The position numbers and the translations under genes are program-made. Below, piece by piece: positions 4,382 through 57,668 of a stretch of 64,000 nt of DNA. The first letter of the stretch is position 1. Every line of letters begins with the position of its first letter. The notes under the pieces were generated by a model, which was not told where the DNA came from, ran no database searches, and saw only the letters and a list, made by a program, of their open reading frames with translations. Source of the stretch: Pegea sp. RAD2-039. Lineage: Eukaryota; Chordata; Thaliacea; Salpida; Salpidae. Location: positions 1 to 64,000 of the forward strand of contig JAQGEQ010000110.1 of NCBI GenBank assembly GCA_034620365.1. Direction: 5' to 3'.

Positions 4382-4389
4382 TGACGTCA
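4382..4389. promoter_or_regulatory. CRE-type palindrome upstream of the THOC7-like gene
   Basis: A perfect TGACGTCA lies about 254 bp upstream of the ATG at 4128. It is retained at 34454-34461 in the duplicate. Function is inferred from the motif only. Confidence 0.4.
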
Positions 4390-4833: not shown

Positions 4834-4839
4834 CTTCAA

Positions 4840-5930: not shown

Positions 5931-5934
5931 ATGA

Positions 5935-9238: not shown

Positions 9239-9267
9239 GAAACGAAAACTCGGATTACAGCTCTTAA
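9239..9267 (+). other. Possible alternative last exon of the secreted protein gene
   Basis: A long pyrimidine tract ends in a TATAG acceptor at 9238. The following bases are in the required phase (1) after the exon ending at 8711. They encode a short tail, RNENSDYSS, and then TAA at 9265-9267. The regular last exon (8817) encodes NSDNSQ and a stop, so both would give similar polar tails. The duplicate keeps it at 39311-39339 with one substitution (E to K). Confidence 0.35.
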
Positions 9268-9599
9268 TCATTAAAAGTCTTGCAACTGATGCTTAAATCT
9301 TAGCAGCTGTTGTAGAAGGCGGAAAATTGTATTCTTTGTAAAGCTGACTTTTTCGTCTTTTCTTTTCTGGAATTTTCTTCAAGTTTTTAAACAAATAAAT
9401 AATTTTCTAACAACAGTTTGTAGTTTTAATTTGTTGTTGTGATGTATTCTGATATCTGAGTATCATACTTTTCTTTGTTTGTGTTTCATCACACAAACTT
9501 TTAGAAATGATAAAGACTTTGTAGCAAAGCTTTACTTTATTATAAATTAAACAAAAATCTTCAGTATTTACTAACATCCACTAACTAAGACTGTATAAG

Positions 9600-10560
9600 A
9601 CTGAGTAAAAGCATTTGCAATCAAAACCCTTGCTTTTTTACTATATATAGCCACAACTGAATAGCACCAAACGCCTTTATTGGCACCTTCCAATCTTTAG
9701 TTTGTAGTTTTCTTGACTTTAAAGTACATCTTAATACCATAAATTATAATGTTCTATCTAGCTATAAACTTGTGGTTGGTACAGAATTGTCCGACCAATC
9801 AGTTGTACGACAAACAAAATAAAAACGCGACACGAAAGAGTATCAAGTATAAGAGGAAAACTAAAACGCAAAAAAAACAGAAGATTTTTTCAGTAGCGAG
9901 ATTATCCCAAACTTCTTTTTTCACTTTGTTGCCGAACACTTCAGTTGTAGAGGCTTACCCTGACACTCCTGTTATTAGCTTGGATGCCTACTACCTTCAC
10001 TGTGTCGGTCAAACTCATTTCATTCATGATTGTTTCTTTTATTCTATCACCAATCATCTTATTATTCTTAACTTTTGACCTCCTTTGATAGTTTAACGCA
10101 ATCGCCCCAAATCCTTGTTCCGTTGTTATAGAGATAAGATGTCGTATAAGCAAGTGGCTAATTTCAAATCGATTTATTAATGGCGATATCTTTTTTCTCC
10201 ACTGAGGGACATAACAACTTCAACCCTTGTAACGTTATTGTCCGTTCCAGTTAAGCGTGACTACTACTGTTACGTCACTAGTATCGCATACCGCTACAAA
10301 TAGTAAAGCTTCACCAATAGCGAGCTATAAGAGTTTCCTCAAAAATGATATTGCCAAAATGCACCAATGCATTCTTAATTGTTCTGCCATATCAGTCAGT
10401 ACTTTTTGAAAAACAGTAATACCAACTTCACAAGCCATAAACTCTTCGTTTTTCTCGGGTATGGTTTTTTTGGTGGTAGGCTCGTTTTAGGTCAGAAGTT
10501 ATTTTAGGTAGTTTTAGGTAGAAAGCAAACAACTTCTTTGCTCTTTCATTTGTCATGTTA
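9600..10560. other. Decayed, GC-richer stretch of unknown origin
   Basis: This region is less AT-rich than its flanks and contains broken reading frames. The plus-strand 109-codon frame (9749-10078) is not kept in the duplicate at 39820, because a 1-bp change shifts it. Minus-strand pieces near 10330-10500 and 9941-10153 are short and out of frame with one another. I suspect an old transposon but recognise no motif. It is duplicated at about 39660-40630. Confidence 0.35.
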
Positions 10561-11221: not shown

Positions 11222-12103
11222 CTAAAAGAATATATACACGGAGTTGGTGAAGTATGGATGTTTAAGAGCTGCATCTGCAGTTAATCTTTCAGTAGGGTTA
11301 CACACAAGTAATTTAGATATAAGATCGTGACCAGCTTGAGTCATATTTGGCAAAAGTGATGCCCAGTTAGGATTAGATGGGTATGTAGGAAAAGGTTTAT
11401 ACTTTGGCAAATTTTGAACACCAGGCCAAGTATGGTTGTTAGGAGTTCCTAATAAACGAAATATGCATTTTAATTGGTCATCTTCATCTCTACCAGGAAA
11501 TAAAGGGACTCCCTTATTTGATATTTCAGCAAAAATGCAACCAGCACTCCAAGTATCAATAGTAGTTGTGTATTTTGTGGCTCCAAATAGTACATCAGGT
11601 GGTCTGTACCATAAAGTGACAACTTCAGATGCCAACTTACAGACAGGAACTCCTAAAGACCTTGCCATTCCAAAATCAGCTATCTTTAACTCTCCATTTT
11701 TGCTAATTAACAAATTCTCAGGCTTCAAGTCACGATGTAAAACCCTTCTGCTATGACAAAACGCCAAACCTTTCATTAACTGAATCATGAACGAACGTGT
11801 AGTTGCAGGATCTATTGAATTTTTACAAGTTTCCAAATATTTACTCAAATCTTGCTCAAAAAACTTAAAAACTAAAACTACTTCAGTTTTATTGTGAATT
11901 ATATCATATAATTTGACAATATTCTCATGTTGCAGTTCTTTTAGGATAGAAACTTCACGCATAAGTGAACCTGGTACCCCCTCATCTTCGATTAGCTGAA
12001 TTTCTTTCAGAGCTAATATTTCGCCAGTTTTTTTATTCTTAGCTTTGTAGACAGTTCCATAAGTTCCTTCGCCAATCTTTTTAATTAATTTATATTTTTC
12101 CAT
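11222..12103 (-). CDS. cdk5: CDK5-type cyclin-dependent kinase, intronless
   Basis: A complete serine/threonine kinase of 293 residues is read without introns, close to the 292 residues of animal CDK5. It shows the glycine loop GEGTYG (11-16, with T14 and Y15), lysine K33, a CDK5-like helix [10 protein letters not shown] with E50, catalytic HRDLKPEN (D125), DFG (143-145) and [15 protein letters not shown]. The RPPDVLFG form is diagnostic of CDK5 rather than CDK1/2 (usually RAPE(I/V)LLG). The residue before the Ser-Glu at 159-160 is Ala, so the Ser-Ala order of human CDK5 at this point is swapped. A minus-strand AATAAA lies about 220 nt past the stop, near 11000. No poly(A) tract is seen, so a retrogene origin is suspected only from the missing introns. 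The duplicate unit U3 has no copy at the matching place. Confidence 0.9.
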
Positions 12104-15399: not shown

Positions 15400-15545
15400 A
15401 AATTGTTTTCTGATTCGCACGTTTTCCTGTTTCAAAAAGTTTCTTTCAAGTCGCGCTTTCCTTTCTTGGAATATCTTTTCAACTCTAACTCAATGATTTC
15501 AAGATCGCTTTTGATAATTTGTCAATGTAATAAAACTCGATTTTA
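15400..15545 (+). other. Orphan MPG 3' end after deletion of the gene body
   Basis: This matches the 3' untranslated end of MPG1 (from 30175) and MPG2 (from 57669), including AATAAA, but no MPG exons lie to its left. Instead it abuts the 330-bp repeat. In U3 the same repeat end (48829) is separated from the MPG end (57669) by 8839 bp, so the body of one MPG appears to be deleted here. Confidence 0.65.
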
Positions 15546-15789
15546 GCAAATAATTAAGTCTGTTTTTATCAGTTCACGCCACTCCCCACTATAATCAAAT
15601 TTAATGATCATACATGAAGGTAGTATTATATCCAACATACATCTCTAATATTCTAATAGAGCTGACGGCGGAAGATGACATCTAAAAGCCACAGTTACGA
15701 TTTTGCTCTTAAGTAGTCTAGGGTATGAGTTGTCTTTGCCATGGTGCAGAGATAAAAGAAGCAACTGGTGGCAAAATATATAAGATAAT

Positions 15790-17545: not shown

Positions 17546-18499
17546 TCATTTTGCAATTAATAAGGCTAAGTTAAATAAAGGAAATATTAATTTTGAGGAT
17601 GCAGCACCCATATAATAGAAAGTTTTGTCAATTATGGAGCTTTTGCAAGAAATGCTAAGTTTGTTTTTCAAACTTTTCCAAATTGACTTTTTCTGAGGTT
17701 TAGGTTCAGCAGCCATAATTAATGGTGAAACCCGATTCTTCCTCATAAACAAATTACGAAAACTAGATGAGCTTCTTGCTTTAATCGGTGTAGTTTTGAT
17801 ATTTTCTTTAAATGGCATATATTCAAAGCATTGCTCAATACTTTTCTTTTTTATTTCATTGTTATTGCCATCACCTCCAGCATAAAACGATTCAATGCTT
17901 TTTATTTCATCTATGGAGTTTAAACTATCACCATCTCCATCACAAGCACCATAAGTATCACTACTTTCAAAGCTAGTTGATATAACGTCTTCAACTAACT
18001 CGGGAATACAAGGTGGTATGCTAAGATTTCGTAGTTGATTCTTAAACTCAGCTTTTGTTACAGCTAAATTTCTTTTTTTACTCAACTGAATCTTCTTTTT
18101 ATTTTTCTTAGAACGTTTTTTAGATTTTTTAACTTTCGGTTTGTGTGTGGAAATCCACAAAGGTGGAAGCCCATTAATATGTTTGTAGGGCTTGTTACAA
18201 CCAATTTTAAGGTTCTCTAGTGAATAACTTCTTCTTTGAAGCAAGTTAGTTTCTTTATGGCTTTTCATCACCAGCAAGGGTGGAGCAGAGTCTGGTCGAG
18301 AATTACCATCTCGATTCAGGTTTATTTTTTCAACATCGTCGATGTTAAAATCTTCCTGAAGACAAATTTTTTCAAGGGCCAGAAACTCCCACAACTCGAT
18401 TTTATCTTCGAGTAAACGATTACAATGAGAGCTGACTCTATAATCATTCAAACTTGGCTTCACTGAAAGACTCATTTTAGAAATTCGTGAAATGCTCAT
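17546..18499 (-). CDS. F317 copy 2, intronless 317-residue protein of unknown function
   Basis: An uninterrupted 317-codon frame is present in three near-identical intact copies in the window, which supports it as a real gene. Visible features are a charged N-terminal helix-prone region (about 25-60), a strongly basic block at about 119-144 (KKSKKRSKKNKKK, like a nuclear-localisation signal), and an acidic D/G/S/E stretch at about 168-212. A Ser/Lys-rich region (240-285) and a mildly hydrophobic C-terminus (about 292-316) follow. There is no signal peptide at the start and no known domain. It converges on MPG in U3 and U4; here its MPG partner is deleted. A CRE site at 18570-18577 lies 71 bp upstream of the ATG. 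Confidence 0.7.
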   Translation of the reverse strand: MSISRISKMSLSVKPSLNDYRVSSHCNRLLEDKIELWEFLALEKICLQEDFNIDDVEKINLNRDGNSRPDSAPPLLVMKSHKETNLLQRRSYSLENLKIGCNKPYKHINGLPPLWISTHKPKVKKSKKRSKKNKKKIQLSKKRNLAVTKAEFKNQLRNLSIPPCIPELVEDVISTSFESSDTYGACDGDGDSLNSIDEIKSIESFYAGGDGNNNEIKKKSIEQCFEYMPFKENIKTTPIKARSSSSFRNLFMRKNRVSPLIMAAEPKPQKKSIWKSLKNKLSISCKSSIIDKTFYYMGAASSKLIFPLFNLALLIAK

Positions 18500-21874: not shown

Positions 21875-21984
21875 TAATGCCAATTTTTAGTTGATGGGTG
21901 AATATAACAATTATTATCAAATATTTTTCACTTGATTTAATGAGCTAACTGCGTTCTTTGTATAAAGCCGAAATTCAAGTTATT

Positions 21985-22002
21985 ATGGAAAAAACTATTG
22001 AA
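21985..22002 (+). other. Candidate first coding micro-exon of MPG1
   Basis: ATG plus five codons (MEKTIE) ends at a GTAATT donor in phase 0, as exon a requires. It is unchanged at 49554-49571. Against it, a TATAAA at 21961 is too close to be the promoter of this ATG. A second candidate core promoter, TAATAAAA at 22130-22137 with TCAGTT at 22160-22165, lies downstream and would exclude it. A 20-codon hydrophobic leader at 22261 (MKLSMLCHLYCFYA) lacks a convincing donor. Confidence 0.25.
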
Positions 22003-22129
22003 GTAATTTGATTTTTGTAATATATTATCGGTTTTAATCTTTAAAATGCTTAGTATAGTATTAAGTAAGACTTTTTATAAGTATTTTAAGCAAAAGAAGA
22101 GTTTAAACATTTAGTTGCCTAAACTTACG

Positions 22130-22165
22130 TAATAAAAACCAGTTTTTGGTGCGCTGGCGTCAGTT
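22130..22165 (+). promoter_or_regulatory. Candidate core promoter of MPG1
   Basis: A TATA-like TAATAAAA is followed about 30 bp later by an initiator-like TCAGTT in a locally GC-rich, highly conserved block. In U3 the TATA-like part reads TAGTAAAA. Confidence 0.3.
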
Positions 22166-22654
22166 CTGCTTCAGACTTTTCGGTGGCAGAAAAGTTGTAT
22201 TAAGTCAAATAGAATCATTTCTTACAAAAATTATAATCTATTTGTTGATTGAGCAAATTAATGAAACTGTCAATGTTATGTCATCTATATTGTTTTTATG
22301 CTACAACTGAAATAAGAGCATAACTTCTTTTAGCTTAAAATTAATAGTAAAAAGTAGTAATAAACTATATTGATTGCTGGTAATTGCTAAATTTATTAAT
22401 TTTTATTAGATTAGTGAGTGTACACTTATAAACATTTTAAAACAAAGTTTGATTTTATAGTAAAACTACTAATATTTAATTATTAAAATATTGTGAGCTT
22501 TTGCCGAATAATAAATTTAATAGTTTTAAATAAACCAGCTTTTGTTTGAATTAATGAGTGATAAGAATTTATTTAAATTTAAAAGTACCTTAAAAAGTAT
22601 TAATAAGATAAGTAATTATCATATATTAATTGACTAAATTTAAATCTTTCTAAG

Positions 22655-25600
22655 GTTTCAAAAATTGATTCTGTTGAAGTTGTTGATAAAAGCATTTTCA
22701 GTTCTAAAGGAGAAACAGGACTCCCTGATCTTTCTAAGGTGAAGAAAGTTTGAAACTTTTTTGAACTTAATTTTTTAAGTGTTGATTTAATTTTGTTAAT
22801 CTTTAACTATTCCAACTATATGTTCCAAATAAATATAAAACTTAATTTAATTTTCAAAAATAGCAAATCTAACTTAATTATTGTTTTACTTTTTTTCAAG
22901 GAACCAAGTTCAAAAGTAAACGAGAAACAAAGTTTTTCATCTACAAGTGCTTCAGATATACTCCAAGTATGTAGAAATTGAAACATTTGATTTGAGCTAT
23001 TAGGTACTTTTTACAATTCAATAAAATGTTTTTAGACAATTATTATAAAAGTTAAATAATCAAAATGACATTTTCAAAGAAATCTAAAAAAACTCAAATA
23101 GAAACATCTTTCTATAAACTAAAGCTTCAAACAAATGTTTTATTTATTAAAATATTACTTAATGATTGTTACTGATGATAAGCTATCTACTAATTGCTCT
23201 AAAATCATTAAAATTTTACTTGATTTCTATAAAAAGTTCAAATTAATAATAATTGGAAATCTAACTTTTTAGGAATTCATTAATCAACCATCTGATGATG
23301 TAATCAATAACAACACTTTGAATTGTAGCAAGGTAAATTTTCTTAGTTAGTAGAATAAATAGAGAAAATGCTTTTGCTTAAAGTACTTTAGAAAAACCAA
23401 ATATCACTTTTTAATTTTTCATAAGGAGCCTGAAACTACTGTAACTGCAACTGATGGAAAGCTTGAATTGAACCCAAATGTTAGAAATCCTGACTTATCC
23501 AACGTTGTAAGAGTTTTAGATATTTTTGTTAACTCTATAATATAATAGAGTTAGAAAAAAAACAAAGAATATTTCATTTGGAAATTAACTTAGCAATCTA
23601 ACTTTCGAAAATAAATATTCTTTAAAGTTTAATATAAAAACAATTTAAAAGTTTGTTGAAGTAGAATTTTAGGTAGAATTTATTAGATGTAAATTTAAAA
23701 CCAAACTTTTACAGCGATCTGATTCTAGTGTTGATGACGTCATTGAGTCTTTTGGGGATGTAAGTTGGTTTTAAACATCGAAAGAAAGAAATCTCTAAAA
23801 CTTAATTTTATCTATTTCTTTTCAAGGGAGGTGTTATTGGTAAAAGTGGGAGTGATAAAAGATCGGTTTTGAACTTTTCAGAAGATACTAAAGCTTCTGA
23901 TTGTTGTGAGGTATTCAAGTTTGTAATTCTCTATTTTTATTATTCAATCTTTTATGTGATTGGTTAAATAAACAACTAACTTTGAAGATGATGATATTAA
24001 ACATTAATATTTAACATCTAAAATAAGTATTCAGAAAAGTTATCGATTATATTAAAATATTAAATAAAAATATTCTTATTTATTTTCAAGAAAACCGGTT
24101 TTGTTTCAAACGGAGCCGATACTAAGAGTTCTGCATCTGAAAATACTCTTGATATTTCTGAGGTAATAATAAACTGAAACAAATTTTCATAGTTTTAAAT
24201 TGCTTTATTCAATTCGTTTAAAAGTTGTTTTATCAATGTTATGACAGCCACAACTCTCAAGTGAAAATTTTATAGAAGTCTCATAACAAACTTGGTCACA
24301 AAAATCATTTAAAACATTGAATAATTTGTTTGTTCATTTTACTAATGTATAATATTGATACAAAAAGGATAAACTGCTCAACTTGTTCGATTCAAAACTT
24401 ATTTAAATCTTAATAATCTGATTTAAAAAAGGAGATACAAAAATAATAAATAAATAATTAAGAAATTAACTTTAGAATTAATTTATCAATGATGTAAACA
24501 ATTTCATCAATTTGTCTTTTTAAATTTTCTCTGATATTTCAAATTAGAAATATTTGTTTGCAAATTTACTTTAAAATTGATTTAACGATCTAACTTATCT
24601 CACTTTTAAACTCTTTAATACTTATAGATTGTTCCCTTTGGTTTTGATTCTGATGTATTTAATAAAGATGCCCCAACAATTGAAGATGTGAGTGTTGCAT
24701 CTTTTTCCTTAAAAGTTTTATGGAAACATTTTGTTTTACTTATGCAAATGTGGTTTTAATAATTAAATTTTTTGCAAATCAATATTTATTATTAAAAAAT
24801 CTTTTACTATTTTTACAACGATTTCATTATTAATTTAAAATATCTTCAGTATCTAAAAACTGATATTTGGAAAGATCTTTCTGCCGAGAAGAAATTACAT
24901 GGGGAAAAATTGAATGTAAGATCTCTAACTTATTTGTACATTTATTTCTTATACTAATTTTTTAGATTCAAATAAACTATCTTAAAATAACTTTTCAGAA
25001 ACAAACTAAATTTAAGATAAATAAACCAAGTTAAAGTTAACCAGTTATTAAATTTCAGAAACCAACTACAAAAACTTCAGAAGAACTTTTGGATGAAGAA
25101 ACAGCAAAAATGGTGGAGGTACTCCATCATATAGTTCATATTTAGCTACACAAATTATTTGTAACTCATATTTATCAGTTTAAAACAAACTAACTTGAAG
25201 CTAATCACTATTTTGTTAATATATTTAACTATTAATCTTTAAAACTAGGAGCTTTTGAGTGATGATATCTTCAACTCTGAGCAAAATAGATTGATAGAAA
25301 AAGAAAAAGAGAAGAAGGAAAAGATGAAGGAGCAGTGTTTGCTTGAATATGAAGCCAAACACAAAAGAGTAACTTTTTTTCAAATAAATTATTGTTGTAT
25401 AAACCTCTTTAGTTTGTTTTAAAAGTTTTGTAAATTATTGAAACATTTGGTGATTTAAACTTCCTTTTATTTTTTTAATGTATATTTTTCTAATTTACCC
25501 AACTTTTAGGTGGTTTTTACTGACCCAATAGTGATTGGGAGGACGGAGCCTATCCTGGTTATGAAATCACTATTGAAGAAGAAGGGTCCAGCCAAAGTAA

Positions 25601-28600
25601 GACATTAAATTGTTGAATAATAAACTTAATAAGAATTAATCATCAAAAACCTTTTGCAGATATCACAAGTTACATCTTATAGTGAGAAAAAGTTTGAGCT
25701 GATATCGGATGTAAGTTGATTTAGAAACTGCTATTCATCACAATTTATAATTTATAAATTATTTAATTTAGTTGTTCAATGATTTTTTGAATAAATTATC
25801 AAAATTGTTTTAACATCATTTCAAAAAACTCAGAATCACATTTAAATCATATTATTTTTAATACAGGATGATTTGGATGATGAAGTGTTTTTGGAAGAAA
25901 TAGATTTGTTATTAAAGAAAATGGCTGAAACTAAAGTCAGTATTAAAAATAATAAACAAAACTTTTAGCAATTGAAATATTAGTAAATAAACATTCATTT
26001 TATTGTTCAAGTTCTAAAGGAAGTCATTTATTAGAGAAAGAAGTTGACTTGCAGATCTAAAACATTTCTTGCTTTTACAAACTAGAAACTTAAATAAATA
26101 AAATAATTGTTTGCCGAATAACAGATTTAAAACATTTTAATAAACCAGCTTTGTGCTTGAAAGTTAAAAGTGATAAAAACCTACCTGATTTGAACAGTAC
26201 CCTAAAAAATATTAATAAAATAAGTAATTATCTTATATTAATTGACTAAATTAAAATCTTTCAAGGTTTCAAAAACTGATTCTGTTGAAGTTGTTGAAAA
26301 AACTACTTTCAGCTCTAAAGGAGAAACAGGACTCCCTGATCTTTCTAAGGTGAAGAAAGTTTTGAACTTTTTTGAACTTAATTTTTAAATGTTGATTTAA
26401 TTTTGTTAATCTTTAACTATTCCAACTATATGTTCCAAATAAATATAAAACTTAATTTACTTTTCAAAAATTGCACATTTAGCGAAATTATTGTTTTATT
26501 AATTTTCAAGGAACCAATTTCAAAAGTAAACGAGAAAAAAAGTTGTTCATCTACAAGTGCTTCAGATATACTCCAAGTATGTAGAAATTAAAACATTTGA
26601 TTTGAGCTATTAGCTACTTTTTACAATTCTTTTCAAAGTTTTAAGCAATTATTTTAAAAACTAAATGCTAAAAATAATAATGTCGAAGAAATCTATCAAA
26701 AATCTCACGTAAACACATCTTTCAGAAAATTAAAACTTCAAACAAATGTTTTATTTATTAAAATATTACTTAATAATTGTTACTGATGATAAACTATCAC
26801 TAATTGCTCTAAAATCATTAAAATTTTACTTGATTTCTAAAAAAGTTCAAAATAATAATAATAATTGGAAATCAAACTTTTTAGGAGCTCATTAATCAAC
26901 CATCTAATGATGTTATCAATAACAACACTTTGACTTGTAGCAAGGTAAGTTTTCTTAGTTAGTAGATTAAATAAAGAGAATACTTCTGCTTAAAGTACTT
27001 TCAGTAAAATAAAAAATAACTTTTTAATTTTTCATAAGGAGCCTGAAACTACTGTAACTGCAACTGATGGAAAGCTTGAATTGAACCCAAATGTTAGAAA
27101 TCCTGACTTATCCAACGTTGTAAGAGTTTTATATATTTTTGTAAACTTTACGATATGTGATAGATACAGAAAACCAAGAATATTTAGTTTTGAAATTAAC
27201 TTAGCAATCTAACTTATTTTTAGCTTAAAATAAATATTCTTTAAAATCTAATTTAAAAGCAATTTAAAAGTTTGTTGAAGTAGAATTTTGGGGTAGAATT
27301 TATTAGATGTAAATTTAAAACCAAACTTTTACAGCGATCTGATTCTAGTGTTGATGACGTCATTGAGTCTTTTGGGGATGTAAGTTGGTTTTAAACATCG
27401 AAAGAAAGAAATTTCTAAAACTTAATTTTATCTATTTCTTTTCAAGGGAGCTGTTATTGGTAAAACTGGGAGTGATAAAAGATCGGTTTTGAACTTTTCA
27501 GAAGATACTAAAACTTCTGATTGTTGTGAGGTATTCAAGTTTGTAATTCTCTATTTCTATTATTCAATCTTCTATGTGATTTGTTAAATAAACCATTAAC
27601 TTTGAAGATGATGATATTAAACATTAATATTTAACATCTAAAATCAGTATTCAGAAAAGTTATCGATTATATTAAAATATTAAATAAAAATATTCTTATT
27701 TATTTTCAAGAAAACCGGATTTGTTTCAAATGGATCTGTTATTAAGAGTTCTGCATCTGAAAATACTCCTGATATTTCTGAGGTAAAAAGAAACTGAAAC
27801 AAATGTTCATAGTTACAAATTGCTTTATGCAATTCTTTTAAAAGTGTTTTTATCAATGTTATGACAGCCACAACTCTCAAGTGAAATTGTTTAAAGAAGT
27901 CTGATAACAAACTTGATCAAAAAGATCATTTTTAACTTTGAATAATTTTATTTTATTTTAACGATGCATAATTTTGATACAAAAGTAATAAACTCTTTTA
28001 CTTGACCAAAATAAAACATTTATAAATATTAAATATCTGGTCTCGTATAATTGCTATTTTTAAACTATTATCCTAAAGCTACCAATTTTTCAAAACGTTA
28101 TATATTAATAACAATAACTGTTTCGTATTTTCAAGGAACTAAAACCAATCGCAAATGAGAATTTATATAAAATACAGGATGCTTTGAATGATGAAGAGTT
28201 TAAAGAAAATCCTAATTTGTTATTACAGAAAGATTCTGAAAATATGGTCAGTATTTAAAAATATATATAAATAAAAGGTTTAGTAAATAATATATTATTA
28301 TATAAACATCTATTTTATTGCTCAAGTTCTAACTGACGTTATCTATTACAGCAAGAAGTTGTTTTGACACGAAACATTTACAGAAAAAAACTGTCTTCAC
28401 TTCCCATATCGAAGGTGAAAATAAATATTGTTTACTTTGTGATAAACCTTCAATCATAAAACTTGTCAAGATTAAGTTAATTGCAAACTACCAAAAATTA
28501 ATCATTGAGTTCTATCTGCTTTTGACTTTCAAAACTGAAACTGAAATAAGTCTTGTAACATATTGAAATTTTATCAAATTTTTATCTCGTTGTTACTGCA

Positions 28601-30141
28601 TTGTAATAATTTGCTATTTATGTTCCATATATTTGTATTTCTTGATATACTTTATTCAATATTTTTTTACACAACAATAGGTACCCAAAGTTCAAAATTG
28701 CTTTCTGGAAAATCCAAAGTTGAAAGCAAACAAACTAGAAGGAAAAATCACAGATGAAAATGAGAATGTGAGATTTAGAGCTTTTTATATTAAGTTTTGA
28801 AACAATACTATTTAAAAGTTGTTTTCCACATTTATTTTGTCAATTGATTAATGAAATCATTAAAAAATGTTTTTACTCTATAATAAAATATAAGGTGATC
28901 TTACAAAGTTTAATTTTGTATACTAATTTTTTATCAAAAAATTTTTTCGCTTTAAATTTGAGATTCTAAAATTAAATGACTATTTCAACAGATTATTGAA
29001 GACACAATAATCCAACATCCAAATATGATTATATCTGAGAATTACAACAAATTAGTAAATTTTCTTTTGAATGCTTTTAAATAAAATTTCAAATTTGATG
29101 TTTAACATTTTTCTCAAACTAAGTTTTTGCAAACAGCTAAACTAAAAGGGTCAATTTTATAATAGTTTATAACTTATAATCCATCTTTAATATTACTATT
29201 ATTTTTAGGGTTTTTTTAGACCCAATTACAGCTTGGTTTTACCTGAAATTAAAGAGTCAACCAAGGTAAGTGTTTAGCTTAAAAAACTTTAATCTCAGTT
29301 TGGAAATCATGATGATATTATCTATTTTTTTAATTAAGGTTACAAGCAAATATAATGATGACGACTTTTTGGCCAATGAGATAAAACCAAAGAGAAAGAG
29401 TAAAATAAGAAAAGTAAATTATAATTACAAAATGTTAAGATCATTTACAATAATAAATAATAGATTTTTCTTCATTGTTTTTTATAAATTGACATATTCT
29501 ATATTATATATAATTATATTCTATGTTTTTCTATGAATGGAATTCTAATATTTACTTTTTTAATAGTTTTTTATAAATCTTCTGGGTCTAGATAAGAATA
29601 AAGTTGTAGCTGTGGTAAGTTCAAAAAGCTTATATTTTAAATATTTATTTCAAAATTTTTAAACCAAACCATCAAACTCTGTTGATAATAGTTAATTTGG
29701 GTTCAGTTTTATTAAGAGTCTAGCTAAGTAGTTTTGGTTATAATTGAATATAAATTTTTAATAAATATCAAACTAAGTTATTTATTACAAAAGCTTTAAA
29801 TATTTTTATGTAAGTTACAAATTAAAACGTTTTTAAAAACATTGCAGACTCAAAAGGACCTTGATATTGAAGAGGTAACATTTAAATAAGAAAATCTATT
29901 AGCAACAGTTTTTTAACTTTCACTTTTCAAGATATTTTCTTTTATTTATACTTTTTACTTTCATAGAAAATCAAAGTAGCGAAAAAACCGTCATTAAACA
30001 TTTTCAAGTGCTTCCAGTTTATGAGTAAGTTAACATGTTACTTATTTTCTTCTTTTAAAGAGTTATTATAAATGAAATATTTTACTCATATTTTGTTAAT
30101 AAAAATCAAAAATGTTTTCTCTTTTAGAAAAGAAGTTCTAA
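22655..30141 (+). CDS. MPG1: about 30-exon gene, all internal exons symmetric phase 0
   Basis: Exons by splice motif and frame: a 22655-22738, b 22901-22966, c 23273-23332, d 23426-23506, e 23715-23759, f 23827-23910, g 24091-24162, h 24628-24687, i 24850-24915, j 25059-25118, k 25249-25368, l 25510-25596, m 25660-25710, n 25867-25935; a2 26266-26349, b2 26511-26576, c2 26885-26944, d2 27039-27119, e2 27335-27379, f2 27447-27530, g2 27711-27782, n2 28178-28246 (or from 28136); o 28352-28414, p 28681-28767, q 28992-29054, r 29209-29265, s 29339-29413, t 29567-29614, u 29848-29874, v 29967-30024, w 30128-30141 (stop). All but v and w are multiples of three and phase 0. About 685 residues can be read. 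The product is hydrophilic and Ser/Asp/Glu/Lys-rich, with a charged helix in exon k (EKEKEKKEKMKEQ) and a basic C-terminus. No known domain was recognised. The start exon is uncertain. Confidence 0.75.
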
Positions 30142-30303
30142 ACAAAATCAAAAAGGGATTCAAGTATTACTCCCAAATTATTTTCTGATTTGCACGCTTT
30201 CCTGTTTCAAAAAGTTTCTTTCAAGTCGAGCTTTCCTTTTTTGGAATATTTTTTCAACTCTAACTCAATGATTTCAAGATCGCCTTTGATAATTTGTCAA
30301 TGT

Positions 30304-30309
30304 AATAAA
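30304..30309 (+). terminator. Polyadenylation signal of MPG1
   Basis: AATAAA about 163 nt after the MPG1 stop, kept after MPG2 at 57798-57803 and in the tails at the left edge and at 15400-15545. Confidence 0.55.
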
Positions 30310-30474
30310 ACTCGATTCTAGCAAATAATTAAGTCTGTTTTTATCAGTGCTCGCCACTCACCACTATAATCACATTTAATGATCATACATGAAAGGATTA
30401 TTAGATCGAACATACACATCTAATAGTCTAAAGAGGTTCTATATTAATCATGCGGAAATTATTTAAGAGTTAGT

Positions 30475-31157: not shown

Positions 31158-32111
31158 TCATTTTGCAATTAATAAAGTAAAGTTAAATGAAGGAAATATT
31201 AATTTTGAGGATGCAGCACCCATATAATAGAAGGTTTTGTCAATTATGGAGCTTTTGCAAGAAATGCTAAGTTTGCTTTTCAAACTTTTCCAAACTGACT
31301 TTTTCTGAGGTTTAGGTTCAGCAGCCATAATTAATGGTGAAACCCGATTCTTCCTCATAAACAAGTTACGAAAACTAGATGAGCTTCTTGCTTTAATCGG
31401 TGTAGTTTTGATATTTTCTTTAAATGGCATATATCCAAAGCTTTGCTCAATACTTTTCTTTTTTATTTCATTGTTATTGCCATCACCTCCAGCATAAAAC
31501 GATTCAATGCTTTTTATTTCATCTATGGAGTTTAAACTATCACCATCTCCATCACAAGCACCATGAGTATCACTACTTTCAGAGCTAGTTGATATAATGT
31601 CCTCAACTAACTCGGGAATACAAGGTGGTATGCTAAGATTTTGTAGTTGATTCTTAAACTCAGCTTTTGTTACAGCTAAATTTCTATTTTTACTCAACTG
31701 AATCTTCTTTTTATTTTTCTTAGAACGTTTTTTAGATTTTTTAAATGTAGGTTTTTGTGTGGAAACCCACAAAGGTGGAAGCCCATTAATATGTTTGTAG
31801 GGCTTGTTACAACCAATTTTAAGGTTCTCAAGTGAATAACTTCTTCTTCGAAGCAAGTTAGTTTCTTTCTGATTTTTCATCACCAACAAGGGTCGAGCAG
31901 AGTCTGGTCGAGAATTACCATCTCGATTCAGGTTTATTTTTTCAACATCGTCGATGTTAAAATCTTCCTGAAGACAAATTTTTTCAAGGGCCAGAAACTC
32001 CCACAACTCAATTTTATCTTCTAGTAAACGATTACAATGAGAGCTGACTCTATAATCATTCAAACTTGGCTTCACTGAAAGAATCATTTTAGAAATTCGT
32101 GAAATGCTCAT
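31158..32111 (-). CDS. F317 copy 3, intact
   Basis: A full 317-codon frame, nearly identical to the U1 copy but without its 1-bp deletion. Differences from copy 2 include Met to Ile after the second methionine-like start region and changes just before the basic block. It converges on MPG1: the MPG1 stop at 30141 and this stop at 31158 are about 1 kb apart, with polyadenylation signals on each strand in between. No function is recognised. A CRE site lies at 32182-32189. Confidence 0.75.
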   Translation of the reverse strand: MSISRISKMILSVKPSLNDYRVSSHCNRLLEDKIELWEFLALEKICLQEDFNIDDVEKINLNRDGNSRPDSARPLLVMKNQKETNLLRRRSYSLENLKIGCNKPYKHINGLPPLWVSTQKPTFKKSKKRSKKNKKKIQLSKNRNLAVTKAEFKNQLQNLSIPPCIPELVEDIISTSSESSDTHGACDGDGDSLNSIDEIKSIESFYAGGDGNNNEIKKKSIEQSFGYMPFKENIKTTPIKARSSSSFRNLFMRKNRVSPLIMAAEPKPQKKSVWKSLKSKLSISCKSSIIDKTFYYMGAASSKLIFPSFNFTLLIAK

Positions 32112-33374: not shown

Positions 33375-34201
33375 TTATTTTAGCAAAATCGCTATAACCT
33401 TTAGATTTTCAAAAATAGTTTGATATCTCTGATTGAGAGAAAGCGAAGTATCGATTCTTAACATCATTTTATCTAAATTCCCAATCATATGTCTTATTTT
33501 CTAAAAAAATAAATATTATTTGATTGATTAATCAGCGGTTTTTGTGACATCTCAACAAAAATAACTTTTCCAAATGTCTTATTAATCTAAAAACTACTTT
33601 TCTATTTAACTACTAAAATAATATATTTAAATGGCTTTAATTATCCTGCAACAGAAGGTTACTTACAACCGCATTAGTCTTTTCGTATTTATCTTTCTGT
33701 AAAACCTGAAGATTTTTTTTGTCGTTCTCTAATTTTTTGATCGTATTTAATCTCAACCTTCTTTCGTGAAATAGTTTATCTGTAACAAATTTTGAGAAAT
33801 GAACAAGTTAAGTTACATGAAAGTTATTCTGTGTCTTCAAACGAAGTCTTTTTTCAACAATCTCTTCTAAATCATAAAGTTGACTTGTGCTTAAACCAAG
33901 CAATTCTTTCCTTAATGATTTCAATTCCAAAAGTGTTTCTTGAATTCTTGAAGAGTTTTTTTTAATTAAACGATGGTAGTCTTCACCTTGAATACTTCTT
34001 CGTTTTTCTATATACATTTGCAATCATAATTTTGTCTGCGTTACTTTTTCTACTATGAATTAAACAGAACTTACCGGAAAGCTTTATCAAAGTTTCATAT
34101 TGAAGACTTTCTTCATTTAAAGACTTTAATCTTGCTTGAACTCTATTAAAGTTTATCTCGATGCAAGAATCACCTCCACACATTTGATCTCTTTCCGACA
34201 T
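33375..34201 (-). pseudogene. THOC7-like gene copy 2, broken by a 106-bp deletion
   Basis: Exons 1 (34201-34075), 2 (34007-33817) and 4 (33500-33375) match the intact U1 gene. The first 52 nt of exon 3 and its acceptor are deleted together with intron sequence. The deletion ends share TAACAA (3604-3609 and 3710-3715 in U1). The junction happens to create a new acceptor, TTTGTTACAG, leaving exon 3 as 33779-33667 (113 nt). That shifts the frame and meets TGA after eight codons. Skipping exon 3 altogether would keep the frame, since exons 2 and 4 join in phase 0, but would lose 55 residues. It is probably non-functional or shortened. Confidence 0.65.
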
Positions 34202-34453
34202 CTTAAACAAAATCAAAATTTTTGTTGTCTAAAACTGAGGTTATCAAAATATACTTTTCTAATTTTTAATCTAATTAATTATACTAAGTGGTATTCAACT
34301 TAAAATTTCACGGCAATAATAAGTATAAAGAGAGATGCTCACTATAAGGTTTGTGCGTCTTTTCTTTGTTATAGAAGTTAGTAGTAGTAGTGTAGCTTAG
34401 ACAAGATTTTACAAGATTGTATAAAAGTTGGACGACTGTAGATAACACATGTA

Positions 34454-34461
34454 TGACGTCA
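34454..34461. promoter_or_regulatory. CRE-type palindrome upstream of THOC7-like copy 2
   Basis: TGACGTCA matching 4382-4389. Confidence 0.4.
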
Positions 34462-34709
34462 CTAAGGCTAATATTCCGAAAAATCGTTTCACTTTCTCCT
34501 AATATTTTCGACTAATTTTGTTTATTTATTTATGAAGTCAAATTATAATTATTAAAAATATTTTAAAAATTTTCCAATAAATAATATAAATTAATAATTA
34601 GGCTAATATTAGCAACTAATTATCAATATTTAGTCGGTTAGTATTCAAAAAACCCTGAAATGAAAATTAGTCTAAGAAAGACAAAAGTTAACACTATACG
34701 AGTAATCAA

Positions 34710-34905
34710 TATTTATAGCTGTGGCGTTCAAGCTTTGAATAATTCTGTCGATCTTGCCACAAAAATGACATCATCAGTACCAATAGGACCCGAGATCAAC
34801 TGCTGCATCGGTAAAGCGTTTTTAAGTTGGAAGGATATTGCAGCAGATCGCTCCGAATGGCGCTCTCTACTCCGTAAACAACTGAATGGTAGAGAAAGAA
34901 AATAA
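34710..34905 (+). mobile_element. RTE-like LINE remnant with internal deletion (U3 copy)
   Basis: Translates identically to 4640-4833. Confidence 0.6.
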
Positions 34906-34909
34906 CTTC

Positions 34910-36000
34910 AATGAAAAAGAGAAAATCCTGAAAGCATTTAGTTCTTTTGCATCTCTCTGTTTTAGCTACTTGATGTTAGACTCGTTTTAAGTGACAGGAA
35001 GCTGAAAGCTTATATCTTGTCAGCTCATTGTCAATATCTTCATTTGTTAGGTCCTATTTGAACTTTTTATTGATCTCCTATTACAGATAGCTTTTGATTT
35101 TCATTTGTGAAGCAAACACATAATCTTATGTTGAGCTTTTAACTTGAACAAATCTGAAATTACCGTTTTATCTAATTTAATATTATTTATCATTATTATT
35201 TAATATCTTATATGTTTAGCGCCATGTGACAAATAATAAATTATACAGGTCTTATAGCGAACTCAGAATAATATGACTATAAAGAAAAAAGAGGTCACAT
35301 GTACCCTGACACATCATCAGTAGTTTGTAAAAAATAGAGACACTGCAATGACAAGCTTATGTAAGTTATAAAAAAGTTAGGAAACTAATAAGTTACAAAA
35401 TAAACAGAAACAATAGAGAAATTGTACTTGTTACTACATTACTCAGTCTGTAGTATCACATGATATCAACAGAAACTAAAATGGTACAAATTATTGAAGA
35501 AGAGTATTTAGATATATAGTAAAATCAAAACTGATAATTTTGATTCTTATTGCTATAAAACAACTGAATTAGCTTTCAGAAGACTTTAAGATAGTTTCAT
35601 CTTTGTTAAGCATAAATACCTACTAACCACAAGATTTGGAATAATTTTAAAATGTGAGCTTATATACACCTAGACAAGCTTATATTAGAAAAATGTTACG
35701 ATACCCACCAATTTTAAATAAATGCTCAACTATTTTATTAGAATAAAACTTTAGAAGTAATTATTATATTTTTTGATGGTTTTGAATGCTGAAACTTGAA
35801 ATTATCACGAGATCTACTTATTTCAACATTTCATTTAGTTAATAAAATCATTTACATACTTTTTCATAATGATACTCATCAAGCAACTTGCCTAAATTTT
35901 TAGTATAAATAAAGAGTTTAAAAAGTTTGAATTCAAAAGAAACAGATTTGATATAAAACCTTCAAATGAAAATTATCATTTACGTTAGAAAGGAAAAGTA
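34910..36000. other. Intergenic DNA with no feature seen
   Basis: Near-identical duplicate of 4840-5930. Confidence 0.5.
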
Positions 36001-36004
36001 GTAT

Positions 36005-36400
36005 GACCTGTTTTGGCCGAGAATGGTCAAGTTGTTTGACAGTGTAGAAGTTATGAAGATCCAGTTGTGACCATACATCAACACCCCATTCTCCACGCAA
36101 GCCAGCTGATGTAACAGAACAACAAAACTGATGCGGCTATGCCCAACTAGCGTTGCAGGAGCTGCCAGAACGGCACTGAATTCAGTGACAAACTGACTAC
36201 TCCGGCTTTAAATTCAGTTTTGCGTCTCCTAGAAGTATTGTCACAAAACAGACTAACAAAGTCCTTCTACCCGAGCCCTCTTATGGACGATTTATTTTCG
36301 CAAATATGAGTTCGCCTGAGCCAAAATCCAGGACCTTCTGCGTGTCAGACAGGTCTGATAACCGCCACAATATAGGGACAGACAAGTAGCAAAAAGAAAA
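36005..36400 (+). repeat. GC-richer dispersed repeat (U3 copy)
   Basis: Duplicate of 5935-6330 with a few substitutions. Confidence 0.5.
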
Positions 36401-36959
36401 TGTAGCAAATAGGCCATCAAGCAATTTTTTTTCTAGTTAGTTTTATTTGATAGTTAGATTAGATTAAATATTTTGTAAATTGTATTATCATTTTAAAAAA
36501 AGATTTCCTACTTTTGATTTAACATTTCTACTGGTTTTATAAATTTAGTTTTAATTTGAAAGAATCAACTAATATTCAATTGATAAGCTAAAATTTTTCA
36601 GATTATATTTAGAAAATTTTTTTAAAATACTTCAAATAATATTTAAAAACAGACATAAAAGTCATACTAACTTGTTTTATACTATTATCAATATTTTCAT
36701 TTATTTAAGTCTTTATATAAACTTGCTATTATGAAAAAATTGGATAGTTAAATAATAAAGATGTATTTACTTTCTTTCAAAATCTTATAAGAGTTATTAG
36801 AATTTTGTACAACAAAATCCTGTAAAAATTAGAAAAATATGTTTAAAACAAATATAAATAATAACATATAAATTTCTATAAAATCAAACTATATCATTGT
36901 TAAAGTAAAAATCAAATTAACTTTTATTTCAGTATTTTTCTGAGAAGCTATTATCAAAC

Positions 36960-38908
36960 ATGAAAAGTTTTTTGTTTAAGTTTTTTATTTGTTTCATTCT
37001 TATGAACCAAACATTAACTGTAGTCGGAGGTAAGAATTATTATTTAGTTTTATTACAAGTAAATAAATATATCATGAAAAAATAATATTCATTAATTCAA
37101 TAAAGCAAATAAAGCATCACTTTTGATATTCAAGAACTTATACCAGCTTTAATAGAGGAAATAATTTCTGAACTGATAATAAAATTTTAATATTTATAAC
37201 TTCAAAATACTATCTGCTTACTAAGAGTTGTAAACAAAAATAATTTCATATTCGATAAATCAAACCAATGTTTGTTTGAAAGATTGTTTTATTACTTTAA
37301 TATAAAACTCATTGCTAATTTCTTTAACACAGATGACCCAGATTGTGGTGATGGACAGTTCTTGGATCTTATATCTTATAGATGTGTATCTGGATGTGAG
37401 GAAGGACACCTAAAAATACAAATAGATCAATTCGCTGGTGTATGCTATCGTGAGTTTATTTTCAATTCAAATCTTTTATAAATCTATATAAGTTTAAAAA
37501 TAACGAAAAGGTTAAAATGATTCTAATAAAATGTTAATAAATTTCATTTAATATTTCAAAAGTCGTATAACTGATTGAAGTAAATTATATTGTTGAGTAA
37601 CATTTCGAAATCTACTCACAAGATGCTTAAACAACGAAATCAAACTATTTTTGGGTTTAATATTGAGATCTAAAAATGTATCCATAAAGCAACTACTTAT
37701 ATCGTTAGAAATGAGGAAAATTAATAATAGTAATAATATTGTCTTTTTAATAGCTCCCACGTTTAAAACTTAATTCTATCCTTTTCTTTCTACTTTGATT
37801 ATTAATACTTAAATTAATACCAAATCTCACAAAGCCCTCATTAAACGCTTATCATCAAAAGTTAAACGAATTGAATAGTTTAATGGAAGAAATAATAAAT
37901 TAGATTATCTTGTTTTCACTTACTTACTTTTTTCTTTTTAGCCTGCGAGTCACCTTGTAAGACATGTGAAGAAAGAACAGACTTTTGCTCAAGCTGTGAA
38001 GAAGGTTATACTTTAGAAAATATAGATTGTATTCAAACAAGTAAGAAGAATATAAATCTAAATATGAACTTATTTTAATTTCAAATAATTTTCTAAATAT
38101 TGAATCAAAACTCGGCGTAAAAATTTCTTTTAATTTCAGACCCGGACAACTCATCAGTGATTACCACCGAATGTGGGGATGGGATGTTTCGTGAAGTCGA
38201 TACTGGAAAATGTGTATCTAGGTGTAAGGAGGGATACCTAACCTTACAACCGATACAGAAACCTGGTTCATGTAGACGTAAGTTTATATGCTGATGATTA
38301 GAATTTCTTTTAAATATTTTTGAATTTACTTTTATCAAAAAATAGGACAACTGTTTCTAGAAAATGACCAATTTATTTTATGAGTAGTAACTTTTAAATC
38401 AAAATAAAAGGTCAAGTTTTGTCCATATTACAAGTTGCCTAAAGGAAAAAGTAGAACTATTACTTGTCCTAGACAAATTAACATATTACAAAATCATTTT
38501 GAAAGCTCACCTTCATTATCACTTTGAATGATGATGTCGTAAATTACCCTGAGTCATCATTAGCAGCTTCAATCTTAAAATATTATCATTAAAAATTCAA
38601 CATGATAATTTAGAAGATTGAATTTTACATTTTTATAAAGATAAATAGAAAAATTAATCGCAATATCTACTTTTTATTTTCTAGCCTGCCAGTCACCTTG
38701 TAAGACCTGCGAATTAAGAGTTGACGTCTGTATGTCGTGCGAAGAAGGTTATACTTCAAATGCTTGGGGTTGTTTGAAAACAAGTAAGTTGCTCATGAAC
38801 CCAAAAACCGATTTATTTCCAAGAAAAATGAATAAAATTTTAAGACTCTATTTGCAGCTCAACACTAAAACTAATTTTCTAATTTCAGACTCTGACAACT
38901 CTCAGTAA
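36960..38908 (+). CDS. Small secreted cysteine-rich protein, six exons (U3 copy)
   Basis: Exons 36960-37029, 37333-37449, 37942-38040, 38140-38277, 38685-38783 and 38889-38908 are the exact counterparts of the U1 gene, with all splice sites and phases kept. Coding differences are few: Leu to Phe in the leader and Leu to Ser at the start of exon 4; another change in exon 5 is silent. Both copies are therefore potentially active. The leader, the A-B-A-B cysteine modules and the polar tail are as described for 6888-8836. Function is not recognised. Confidence 0.75.
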
Positions 38909-39310
38909 ATATATAAGCTAGCTTATAAATCAACAGTATAGTAGCACTAATTAAACAGAAAAATGAAAAATGTAACAATAAATCGCTTACTGACGACTTA
39001 AGTTGATTTATCAGTTTGCTCTTTAATACAAAGTTTTTTGTCCAATAATAAAATAAACTTTTTAAAATTCTTAGCTTTGTTGTATCAAAAGTAACAAACA
39101 ATGAATTTGAAAATAATTTGTGAAATCAAAATATTCCATTTGCTACATTTAAATACAAAAGATATAAATTAATCAAAGATTATAAAAGTTCAAACATTTG
39201 ATATTTCTAATTATAGGTATAATATTTGATAATCTTTGTTGTTATAAATATTAATCACAGTTTAATTTATTTACATTTTTCTAATTTTTTTTACTTTTCT
39301 GTTGATATAG

Positions 39311-39339
39311 GAAACAAAAACTCGGATTACAGCTCTTAA
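39311..39339 (+). other. Possible alternative last exon (U3 copy)
   Basis: Counterpart of 9239-9267, with the same pyrimidine tract, acceptor and phase. Confidence 0.35.
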
Positions 39340-39659
39340 TCATTAAAAGTCTTGCAATTGATGCTTAAATCTTAGCAGCTGTTGTAGAAGGCGGAAAATT
39401 GTGTTCTTTGTAAAGCTGAATTTTTTCGTCTTTTCTTTTCTGGAATTTTCTTCAAGTTTTTAAACAAATAAATAATTTTCTAACAACAGTTTGTAGTTTT
39501 AATTTGTTGTTGTGATGTATTCTGATATCTGAGTATCATACTTTTCTTTGTTTGTGTTTCATCACACAAACTTTTAGAAATGATAATGACTTTGTAGCAA
39601 AGCTTTACTTCATTATAAATTAAACAAAAATCTTCAGTATTTACTAACATCCACTAACT

Positions 39660-40630
39660 AAGACTGTATAAGACTGAGTAAAAGCATTTGTAATCAAAAC
39701 CCTTGCTTTTTTACTATATATAGCCACAAATGAATAGCACCAAACGCCTTTATTGGCACCTTCCAATCTTTAGTTTGTAGTTTTCTTGACTTTAAAGTAC
39801 ATCTTAATACCATAAATTATAATATTCTATCTAGCTATAAACTTGTGGTTGGTACAGAATTGTCCGATCAATCAGTTGTACGACAAACAAAATAAAAAAC
39901 GCGACACGAAAGAGTATCAAGTATAAGAGGAAAACTAAAACGCAAAAAAAACAGAAGATTTTTTCAGTAGCGAGATTATCCCAAACTTCTTTTTTCACTT
40001 TGTTGCCGAACACTTCAGTTGTAGAGGCTTACCCTGACACTCCTGTTATTAGCTTGGATGCCTACTACCTTCACTGTGTCGGTCAAACTCATTTCATTCA
40101 TGATTGTTTCTTTTATTCTATCACCAATCATCTTATTATTCTTAACTTTTTACCTCCTTTGATAGTTTAACGCAATCGCCCCAAATCCTTGTTCCGTTGT
40201 TATAGAGATAAGATGTCGTATAAGCAAGTGGCTACACTTTCAAATCGATTTATTAATGGCGATATCTTTTTTCTCCACTGAGGGACATAACAACTTCAAC
40301 CCTTGTAACGTTATTGTCCGTTCCAGTTAAGCGTGACTACTACTGTTACGTCACTAGTATCGCATACCGCTACAAATAGTAAAGCTTCACCAATAGCGAG
40401 CTATAAGAGTTTCCTCAAAAATGATATTGCCAAAATGCACCAATGCATTCTTAATTGTTCTGCCATATCAGTCAGTACTTTTTGAAAAACAGTAATACCA
40501 ACTTCACAAGCCATAAACTCTTCGTTTTTCTCGGGTATGGTTTTTTTGGTGGTAGGCTCGTTTTAGGTCAGAAGTTATTTTAGGTAGTTTTAGGTAGAAA
40601 GCAAACAACTTCTTTGCTCTTTCATTTGTC
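39660..40630. other. Decayed stretch of unknown origin (U3 copy)
   Basis: Duplicate of 9600-10560, with no intact gene. Confidence 0.35.
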
Positions 40631-41651: not shown

Positions 41652-44600
41652 TCACAGTTTAGAAATGGCAATGTTGGCGATGTTATAACAATTCAGCTTT
41701 TTCTTGAACAGCATAAGTGATTTTGACATGACAATCTCTGATGGCAGATTGTTCCATGTACTGATTGTGCGGTATGAGAAAAAACTTAATCTGGTTAACG
41801 TTGCTGGTGGAGTGGGCTTATTAAGATGTAATTTATGTCTTCTAAGTTGATATAACTTGAGGGAGGGACTAATGGAGAAAAAGTCATCAAACTGAAGATC
41901 AATTAGGTTGTGAATAATTTTAAAAATCAGAATAAGGTCGTATTTAATTCTTCGGATTTCCAAAGTATCTAGATTGAAGAAGCTGAGACGATGCTTATAA
42001 CTCTCGTATTTGATATTAAGTTTCCTGCAAACCAATCTCGTAAATGTTGCCTGAACAGATTCGATTTTTCTGATATCACCAACTTGATATGGCATCCATG
42101 CACTGACATTGTATTCAAGAATAGGGCGTATGTACAGTTTCAAAAGGTTGACGAAAAACCATGGATCTTTAGAATTAAAAGTCTTTATGATGAGGTGGAG
42201 AAGCCTGATAGATTTTCCAAAGATTCTGAAAACATAACTGTGCCATTTGAAGTCAGATGTCAGAGTAATGCCGAGGTCTATGACTGAGGATACTCGTTCA
42301 AGAATAGATCCATTGATGTAGTATTGGTTGCTGAAGTTGGCAGCTGGCTTACGGGAGAATGTTATAACTTCAGACTTTGTTGGCTGGATTTTAAGTTGCC
42401 AATTCGCAGACCAGTTTTCTACAATATTTAGTGCAGTTTGGAGTTTTGAGTGAGAACCAGATAATAGCTTGATGTCGTCTGCATACACAAACACACTGAC
42501 ATTGTCTACTGTTATTAGTCTTCTGATGAGGTCTTCAATGAAAATCAAAAAGAGAAGTGGACCCAGGACGGAACCTTGAGGAACGCCGCTGGTGACTTTA
42601 CTAGGAGTAGATAAAGATCTTTCTACACGGGTTCGTTGGGTTCTACCTGATAAGAAATCTTCAATCCATTTTAAGATAGAGTTGCTGATTTTTATGTTTT
42701 TCAATACAGTAATGAGCTTGTTGTGTGGAACAGAATCAAAAGCTTTAGCAAAATCAAGGTATATGATGTCACATGGAGTATTACTTTCGTAATGAACTGT
42801 AAGCTCATTGAAAAAATTGAGATGTTGAGTCAAAGAAGATCTTTGCTTAACAAAGCCATGCTGGACATCAGATATTAGATGATGCTCCGTCAAATGGCTA
42901 GTTATATGGTTGTGAATGATGTGTTCTTGAGTTCTGCAGATAACCGAAGTCAGCGAAACTGGTCTGTAGTTAAGTGCAGTGTTTCTGGGACCCTTCTTAT
43001 AAATTGGAGTAATAATAGCATTCTTCCAAATTTGTGGAAGTCTTCCCCGCTTAAGAGTCATGTTAAAGAGTAGCGATAAGGGTAGCGCTAAAGAAGAAGT
43101 ACTTTTTCTTAAAAACAAAGCTGGGATTTGATCTGGGGTGTTGGAAACTGTTGATTTTAGAGAAGAAATAGCCTTAGATACTATATCAGCTGTTATGTCT
43201 AGATCTACCATCTCAGAGATATTTGAAAGGATATTGGAGTAGGAAATAGTAGGAGTATTGCCATCATCGGTTATAAAAACCTTTTCAAATTGTTTGTTTA
43301 GCAATTCAGCTTTATTCTTTGGTTCCATCACCAGCTGATTAGCGTTATCAAGCAAGGGAGGTAGATGAGATCTCACCTTAAGCTTGTGATTAATGAAGCC
43401 AAAAAACGTTTTCTTGCTAGGTGAATATAAGATTGCACTTTCTTTTCCTAAATAGAAGCTATAAACTGATTTCTTGTAGACTAGACAAAGATCTTTGTAT
43501 AGAGGTTTGATGGAAGGATCTGCTTTAGTTTGTTTGTATAAGAGGTTTTTCAAATGCTGTAAATTCCTTAAATATCTTGGCAAGTGTGGTTTTTTGTTGA
43601 CTCTATATAAAGGTATGAACTTTTTAATTGACTCATTAACAATGTTAGTAAACCTCGAGTAGATATCATTGATGTCTTCGGTAGAGTTGAAAACAGAAAT
43701 CCAGTCAACACCTGATAAAAACTTGTTTATACTGTTATAATTTCCACGATAAAAGTTCCGTATGCTTGGAGTTTTAACGTTCGTAGAAAAAGTTTGATGG
43801 AGCTTGAATTCAATCATGTTGTGATCGCATGTCAGAGCAAAAGGTTCCTTTTGATCAACGTAGATAACGTTCTCAGGTTTTGATGTGATGAGAAGATCCA
43901 AAGTATTAACACTAACTTGGGTTGGAAAAGTAACCATCTGAGATAGATTATTGGCATCAAGGAAGTTTACAAAGACATGACTCAGATTGGCTAAATTAGT
44001 TTTGTCTTCATTCAAATTAAACATTTTTCCATTGAATGCTAAATTTGGGTTATTCCAATCAATTCTACTAAAATTAAAATCCCCAAGAATATAGATCTCA
44101 GGACAAACTAGGCTTTTCAGAACCTTCAATAAGGCCTTAATAGTAACATCATCGTTAACTTTAGACGGTGGTAGGTAGGTACATATAAAGCGGGAAAACT
44201 TAGACTTTGAGTAATGAAAGTAATTGAAAGCAATAATCTCAAATCCTGGGCAGTCCATGGTATTTATCTTAATTCTTGAAATCATAGGTGCCAGTGATGT
44301 TTTATAGATTACACAAACACCGCCGCCTCTATCAAACAGTCTGTCACAGCGCAAAGCACGAAAAAGATCACTGTCATCCAGAAAGGAGTCAGGATAAAAG
44401 GGTTTCAACCAAGTTTCGGTAATGAAAACAAATGTAAAATCTTGAGAAAGCAAAAGAGCTTTCAATTCGAAAATTTTGTTGACAATTGACCGTGCGTTGA
44501 AAAACATACCTAATATAATAGAAAAATTGTCTTTTTGACACTTGTAAGATTTGGTGGTAGGCTTCTGTGTACTGGTATCTTGAGCTGGAAGCATAGTATT

Positions 44601-57634: not shown

Positions 57635-57668
57635 ACAAAAGCAAAAAGGGATTCAAGTTTCGACTCCC

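Follow-up and report, generated by a model that had tools for sequence, protein, structure and literature searches.

The exon chain

The first 64,000 nucleotides (nt) of contig JAQGEQ010000110.1 from Pegea sp. RAD2-039 (assembly GCA_034620365.1), here called the window, carry on the forward strand a gene built of many small exons of one symmetric phase. The initial annotation had proposed 29 stop-free exons bounded by AG and GT, and this chain is confirmed between 22655 and 29874: exon lengths (27-120 nt, mean 70, total 2028 nt) are all multiples of three, and all 29 exons are open in frame 0, preceded by AG, followed by GT, and in phase 0 at both ends. Frame 1 is open in 10 of the 29 and frame 2 in 3; the introns span 63-465 nt.

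The chain opens with exons a (84 nt, 22655-22738), b (66 nt, 22901-22966), c (60 nt, 23273-23332), d (81 nt, 23426-23506), e (45 nt, 23715-23759), f (84 nt, 23827-23910) and g (72 nt, 24091-24162), continuing through h (60 nt, 24628-24687), i (66 nt, 24850-24915), j (60 nt, 25059-25118), k (120 nt, 25249-25368), l (87 nt, 25510-25596), m (51 nt, 25660-25710) and n (69 nt, 25867-25935). There follows a second set, in which A (84 nt, 26266-26349), B (66 nt, 26511-26576), C (60 nt, 26885-26944), D (81 nt, 27039-27119), E (45 nt, 27335-27379), F (84 nt, 27447-27530) and G (72 nt, 27711-27782) are second copies of a to g, and in which exon o (111 nt, 28136-28246) is related, in its second half, to exon n; exons h to m have no counterpart there. 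The conserved 3' part starts with exon p (63 nt, 28352-28414) and comprises q (87 nt, 28681-28767), r (63 nt, 28992-29054), s (57 nt, 29209-29265), t (75 nt, 29339-29413), v (48 nt, 29567-29614), u (27 nt, 29848-29874), which is the last fully symmetric exon, and exon x, described below. Among 210 exon pairs compared, n-o and k-n stand out, followed by a few weaker ones (p-values uncorrected); with only these two pairs prominent, it is not claimed that the exons in general are relics of one ancestral repeat.

To gauge what chance would give, phase-0 candidates with scored splice sites were joined into the best chain in 22001-30150 and in 60 approximately dinucleotide-preserving shuffles. It totals 2256 nt on the forward strand and 423 nt on the reverse strand, the shuffles giving a mean of 389 nt and a maximum of 783. 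When 14 tiles of 8150 bases covering 1-60150 were scanned, forward-strand phase-0 chains above 1000 nt were found only in tiles overlapping two gene copies.

Family copies, selection and cassette content

When the genome was searched with the 5' block of the gene (query 21900-22010), 21 matches at 97-100% identity were found, and the family has at least 21 copies in two subfamilies. Eight matches are A-type, near-full copies of the subfamily to which the window gene belongs (five on contig C236, two on C21 and one on C25), and 13 are B-type, so classed by an 85-87% match to part of the window gene; seven of the latter are on contigs of 16-26 kb and two share one 871-kb contig. On C238, C157 and C14, only 3' exons were recognised in the stretches fetched. 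A second full copy is present where the initial annotation had pointed (49450-57850), running on the forward strand from 49469 to about 57850, with its 5' block at 49469-49579 and exons a to u at 50224-57367: exon m has lost its GT, and the other 28 of 29 exons are intact. The 3' flank of a further copy lies at the window edge (1-300, forward strand, identical to 30175-30474), and another copy of this flank, 83% identical to 1-300, is at 15400-15699 on the same strand.

Comparison of these sister copies suggests that the exons are protein-coding. In the eight A-type copies there are 232 exon instances, two of them beyond the fetched DNA; 216 of the remaining 230 are intact and 14 irregular, six of the latter being accounted for by one rearranged b-d block in two copies. 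Relative to the window copy, five other copies show 5 exon indels, 4 of them multiples of three, and 170 intron indels, of which 23 are (147 are not). The ratio of nonsynonymous to synonymous divergence (dN/dS) is 0.42-0.77 over the 15 pairs formed by six A-type copies (pooled, 0.58), with introns more diverged than exons in all 15; between the window copy and the B-type copy C45 it is 0.56 over 18 exons (dS 0.26, dN 0.15; chi-square p 0.0007). Judged by these comparisons, the exons evolve as coding sequence, with their frame preserved.

Copies also differ in how many exon sets they hold. With exon l as a marker, cassettes were counted in 10 B-type stretches: three have one, six have two, and one has at least three, its 5' end lying off the contig. 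A terminal a-e-f module closes all 10 stretches, with exon p next in all eight that extend that far, and C45 has an additional partial a-e-f-g module; exons b, c and d have no match in the B-type stretches. Lesions among the B-type exons queried are a stop in j2 (C372) and loss of the donor of j (C180). Cassette number (one, two or at least three) and exon content differ between copies, and exons appear to have been gained or lost as whole units.

The 5' block is the best conserved stretch of all. Between the window copy and C45 it includes an identical run of 113 bases, with identity of 103/103 in the block, 93/115 just upstream and 484/619 aligned positions in intron 1; across the B-type copies examined, it has 0-3 differences in nine of nine. 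A 113-bp block that is nearly frozen, while adjacent non-coding DNA has diverged by about 20%, suggests that the gene start is either under strong constraint or subject to sequence exchange, each of which would account for the pattern.

Gene ends and neighbouring features

The near-invariant block spans 21897-22009 on the forward strand. Alignment of eleven copies upstream of the exons places in it a TATAAA-like site (21961-21966), then an ATG followed by GAAAAAACTATTGAA and the first donor. The peptide MEKTIE (21985-22002) is probably the first coding exon, joining exon a in phase 0; with no methionine in exons a to i, no other start is as likely. The ATG is retained in nine of nine B-type copies examined, two of which read MDKTIE and one of which has an altered TATAAA. 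Only 24 nt separate the start of the TATAAA-like site from the ATG, a shorter distance than usual, so that an upstream exon or a spliced leader is possible.

At the other end, exon x begins at 29967 and either is spliced at 30025 (GTAAGT), giving 58 nt (29967-30024), or continues to a stop at 30069-30071; if spliced, it exits in phase 1, and the exon symmetry stops there. A possible last exon with 3' untranslated region lies at 30128-30320 (AATAAA at 30304-30309), a stretch in which copies differ by single-base indels. From 29990, 68 bases are identical in the window copy and C45, and because this identity runs 33 nt beyond the exon x donor, the 3' end may be either spliced or read through.

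Intron 1 has a conserved stretch at 22120-22215. It was considered as an extra coding exon (about 22120-22215) and rejected, on account of a single-base indel between copies; as a structured RNA it is not supported (fold z -0.66, with 53 of 200 shuffles as good). An Rfam search of the whole window gives nothing at gathering thresholds.

Facing the 3' end of the gene is an intronless open reading frame (ORF) of 317 codons (31158-32111, reverse strand), with copies at 17546-18499 and 59802-60755 and a frame-broken one at 984-1936. In each of the eight A-type genes a copy lies 1.1-2.3 kb beyond exon x, in the facing orientation, and the ORF has 21 near-full copies in the genome, on C236, C21 and C25, with no match on any B-type contig. 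The one copy scanned has no Pfam match, and dN/dS among the three window copies is 0.49-0.58. Direct repeats reveal that segments of the window have been duplicated: 3710-10461 and 33783-40537 are duplicates about 30 kb apart, the 300-base pieces sampled from them being 99-100% identical. On the reverse strand, an intronless 293-codon CDK5-like kinase ORF (11222-12103; best solved match CDK5) is possibly a retrocopy and is consistent with an animal genome, and 41652-45646 holds a long interspersed nuclear element (LINE)-type element, with a reverse transcriptase and endonuclease domain and an adjoining 331-codon ORF lacking a Pfam match. Short cysteine-rich open stretches at 7128-8836 (forward strand), without a convincing Pfam match, are possibly exons of another gene.

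Interpretation and known systems

The conceptual product has 701 amino acids (aa), of which 32% are charged, with low hydropathy, 3.7% glycine and 4.1% proline. The initial annotation saw no known domain in it, and Pfam, searched to E=1, likewise gives no match; a search of Protein Data Bank (PDB) sequences to the same threshold gives a single chance-level one (E=0.11). The N-terminus, MEKTIE-VSKIDSVEVVDK, read from the predicted start codon and judged without a dedicated signal-peptide predictor, has no hydrophobic stretch, and the most hydrophobic 19-aa window, from residue 273, has a mean of 0.97. These properties suggest a long, repeat-built, charged protein that is probably disordered and not secreted; the best guess as to its role is an intracellular scaffold or binding chain. 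The basic run KPKRKSKIRK in exon t could be a nuclear signal.

The most probable explanation, if one held with some reserve, is that the genome, AT-rich and eukaryotic, holds an amplified orphan multigene family whose members have diverged at the DNA level as entire phase-0 exons were gained and lost. Each gene would start with a promoter region and first exon that hardly vary, followed by head-to-tail cassettes (one or more) of symmetric exons and then by the conserved 3' part (p to x), with recombination in introns adding or removing whole exons or cassettes while the frame is kept: since all junctions among the 29 exons are in phase 0, such gains and losses would spare the frame and leave copies that differ. 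Unequal exchange between introns would be a natural mechanism, and most exons are presumed to be spliced in and the protein to be intracellular. Literature searches for genes of this kind turned up none on this family, a statement limited to those searches. Within a single genome, closely related copies are set apart by entire exons or cassettes, the frame being mostly kept; if the genes are expressed, they would amount to a natural experiment in how phase symmetry of exons lets a protein be remodelled rapidly.

A number of points weigh against this explanation. The gene model is drawn from DNA sequence, and its first exon and 3' end are predictions. The contrast in the chain scan is not clean: chains of 3n+1 and 3n+2 exons reach 1005 and 1013 nt, exceeding their shuffle maxima of 690 and 839, so that the signal lies partly in open frame and splice-site density and not in phase, even if neither total reaches half of that for phase 0. 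The purifying selection is no more than moderate, the A-type copies give small counts per exon (in several exons the nonsynonymous rate exceeds the synonymous), and the copies, which have a common history and may exchange sequence, do not yield independent pairwise counts. The 14 irregular exon instances include a frameshift in E (copy c21b) and one in k (copy c236_3), and some copies may accordingly be decaying. Disorder is judged from composition alone, with a charge-hydropathy value on the boundary (0.427 vs 0.429), and an upstream exon, if present, would leave room for secretion.

Possibilities other than diversification in the DNA differ in what they make of the same exons. The initial annotation saw in the symmetry a large combinatorial potential. 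Under combinatorial splicing, exons would be skipped or joined in many ways to give many isoforms per gene, as in schistosome micro-exon genes (MEGs), which reportedly undergo differential splicing (DeMarco 2010). All 29 exons could indeed be skipped in frame, and single lost donors are tolerated in some copies; in addition, 12 of the 29 window acceptors (a, b, d, f, g, A, B, D, F, G, o and t) are AAG, not CAG or TAG, and at these acceptors AAG is kept in all 92 instances that retain AG in the eight A-type copies, which could mean regulated weak sites. Acceptors are, however, TAG in the later a modules of the B-type copies C45 and C385 and in exon t of C45, so that AAG is not strictly kept: it might mark regulated sites or merely be a habit of this genome. 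Most copies have conserved donors and acceptors, as constitutive exons would, and exon duplication and loss, whose products are visible here, leaves symmetric exons without any alternative splicing. The step from symmetry to combinatorial splicing is thus not supported, and the variability that can be demonstrated is between gene copies, in cassette number and exon content, not between isoforms; splicing of this kind as the main source of diversity is unlikely. A somewhat more doubtful proposal would combine two layers: conserved ends would keep the genes, at least 21 of them, open to expression and recombination, unequal exchange would vary their cassettes, and weak AAG acceptors would let splicing choose among the exons. 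Such a system, if real, would be an intracellular counterpart of secreted micro-exon families.

Another possibility, and a decidedly improbable one, is an elastic or structural repeat protein of titin-PEVK or collagen type, with constitutive symmetric exons and a chain length set by cassette number. The protein is long, charged, repeat-built and without a domain match, as this would have it, but its glycine and proline contents are low, no hydrophobic leader is seen for a matrix role, and the 21 or more gene copies are unusual for proteins of this kind; collagen nevertheless provides a precedent for many small multiple-of-three exons, to go by the available text of PMC4838654. Least probable of all is a decaying or passenger repeat, spread by segmental duplication as a gene of little function with many copies pseudogenes. 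The copies do lie in duplicated segments of the window some 30 kb apart, along with LINE-type elements and the co-copied 317-codon ORF, some copies have lesions, and in three of the stretches fetched only 3' exons were recognised. Against this, reading frames and splice sites survive in 216 of the 230 exon instances, whereas many intron indels are not multiples of three; dN/dS between subfamilies is below 1, and the 5' block is near-invariant.

Several known systems invite comparison with the window gene. Titin PEVK, too, is encoded by many small symmetric exons in succession and is disordered and charged, but its exons are in phase 1-1 and it is proline-rich, whereas the exons here are in phase 0-0 and proline is 4.1%. 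Collagen splicing is mostly constitutive. A long run of small multiple-of-three exons is common to collagen genes and the window gene, but the window protein has no triple-helix match (PF01391; Pfam to E=1) and little glycine, and its family has varied exon lengths, at least 21 copies and differing cassette numbers; collagen exons, in the available text, are for the most part 54 nt long, lengths of 36 and 45 nt also being common, an arrangement attributed to exon duplication (PMC4838654). As to lineage markers, neither PF00379, an arthropod cuticle family, nor PF01484 has a match in this genome, in searches made without a positive control. Searches for COX1, for a pattern from the 18S end and for a rotifer spliced leader (up to 2 mismatches allowed) likewise gave nothing.

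Further likenesses are with MEG and bicycle genes. The accessible part of one account describes schistosome MEGs as having tandem symmetric exons in multiples of three, some being multi-copy, with micro-exons of 6-36 nt and signal peptides in several products (PMC3961193). The symmetry is matched by all 29 window exons; the size is not, since just one of them is 36 nt or less, the other 28 being longer, with a mean of 70 nt over all 29, a difference from MEGs that the initial annotation had drawn. In the conceptual protein, as read from its predicted start, no hydrophobic leader is seen. Aphid bicycle genes, putative gall effectors, are described in the text available as a fast-evolving family with about 17 exons on average, many of them unusually small internal exons of one phase, almost always phase 2, and the related megacycle genes as having more than 100 microexons (PMC9168663). 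Here, too, there is a family of genes with many small exons sharing one phase, but in the window gene that phase is 0 in 29 of 29. Membership in either group is not claimed: what the window gene resembles, in MEG and bicycle genes alike, is their modular construction from small exons.

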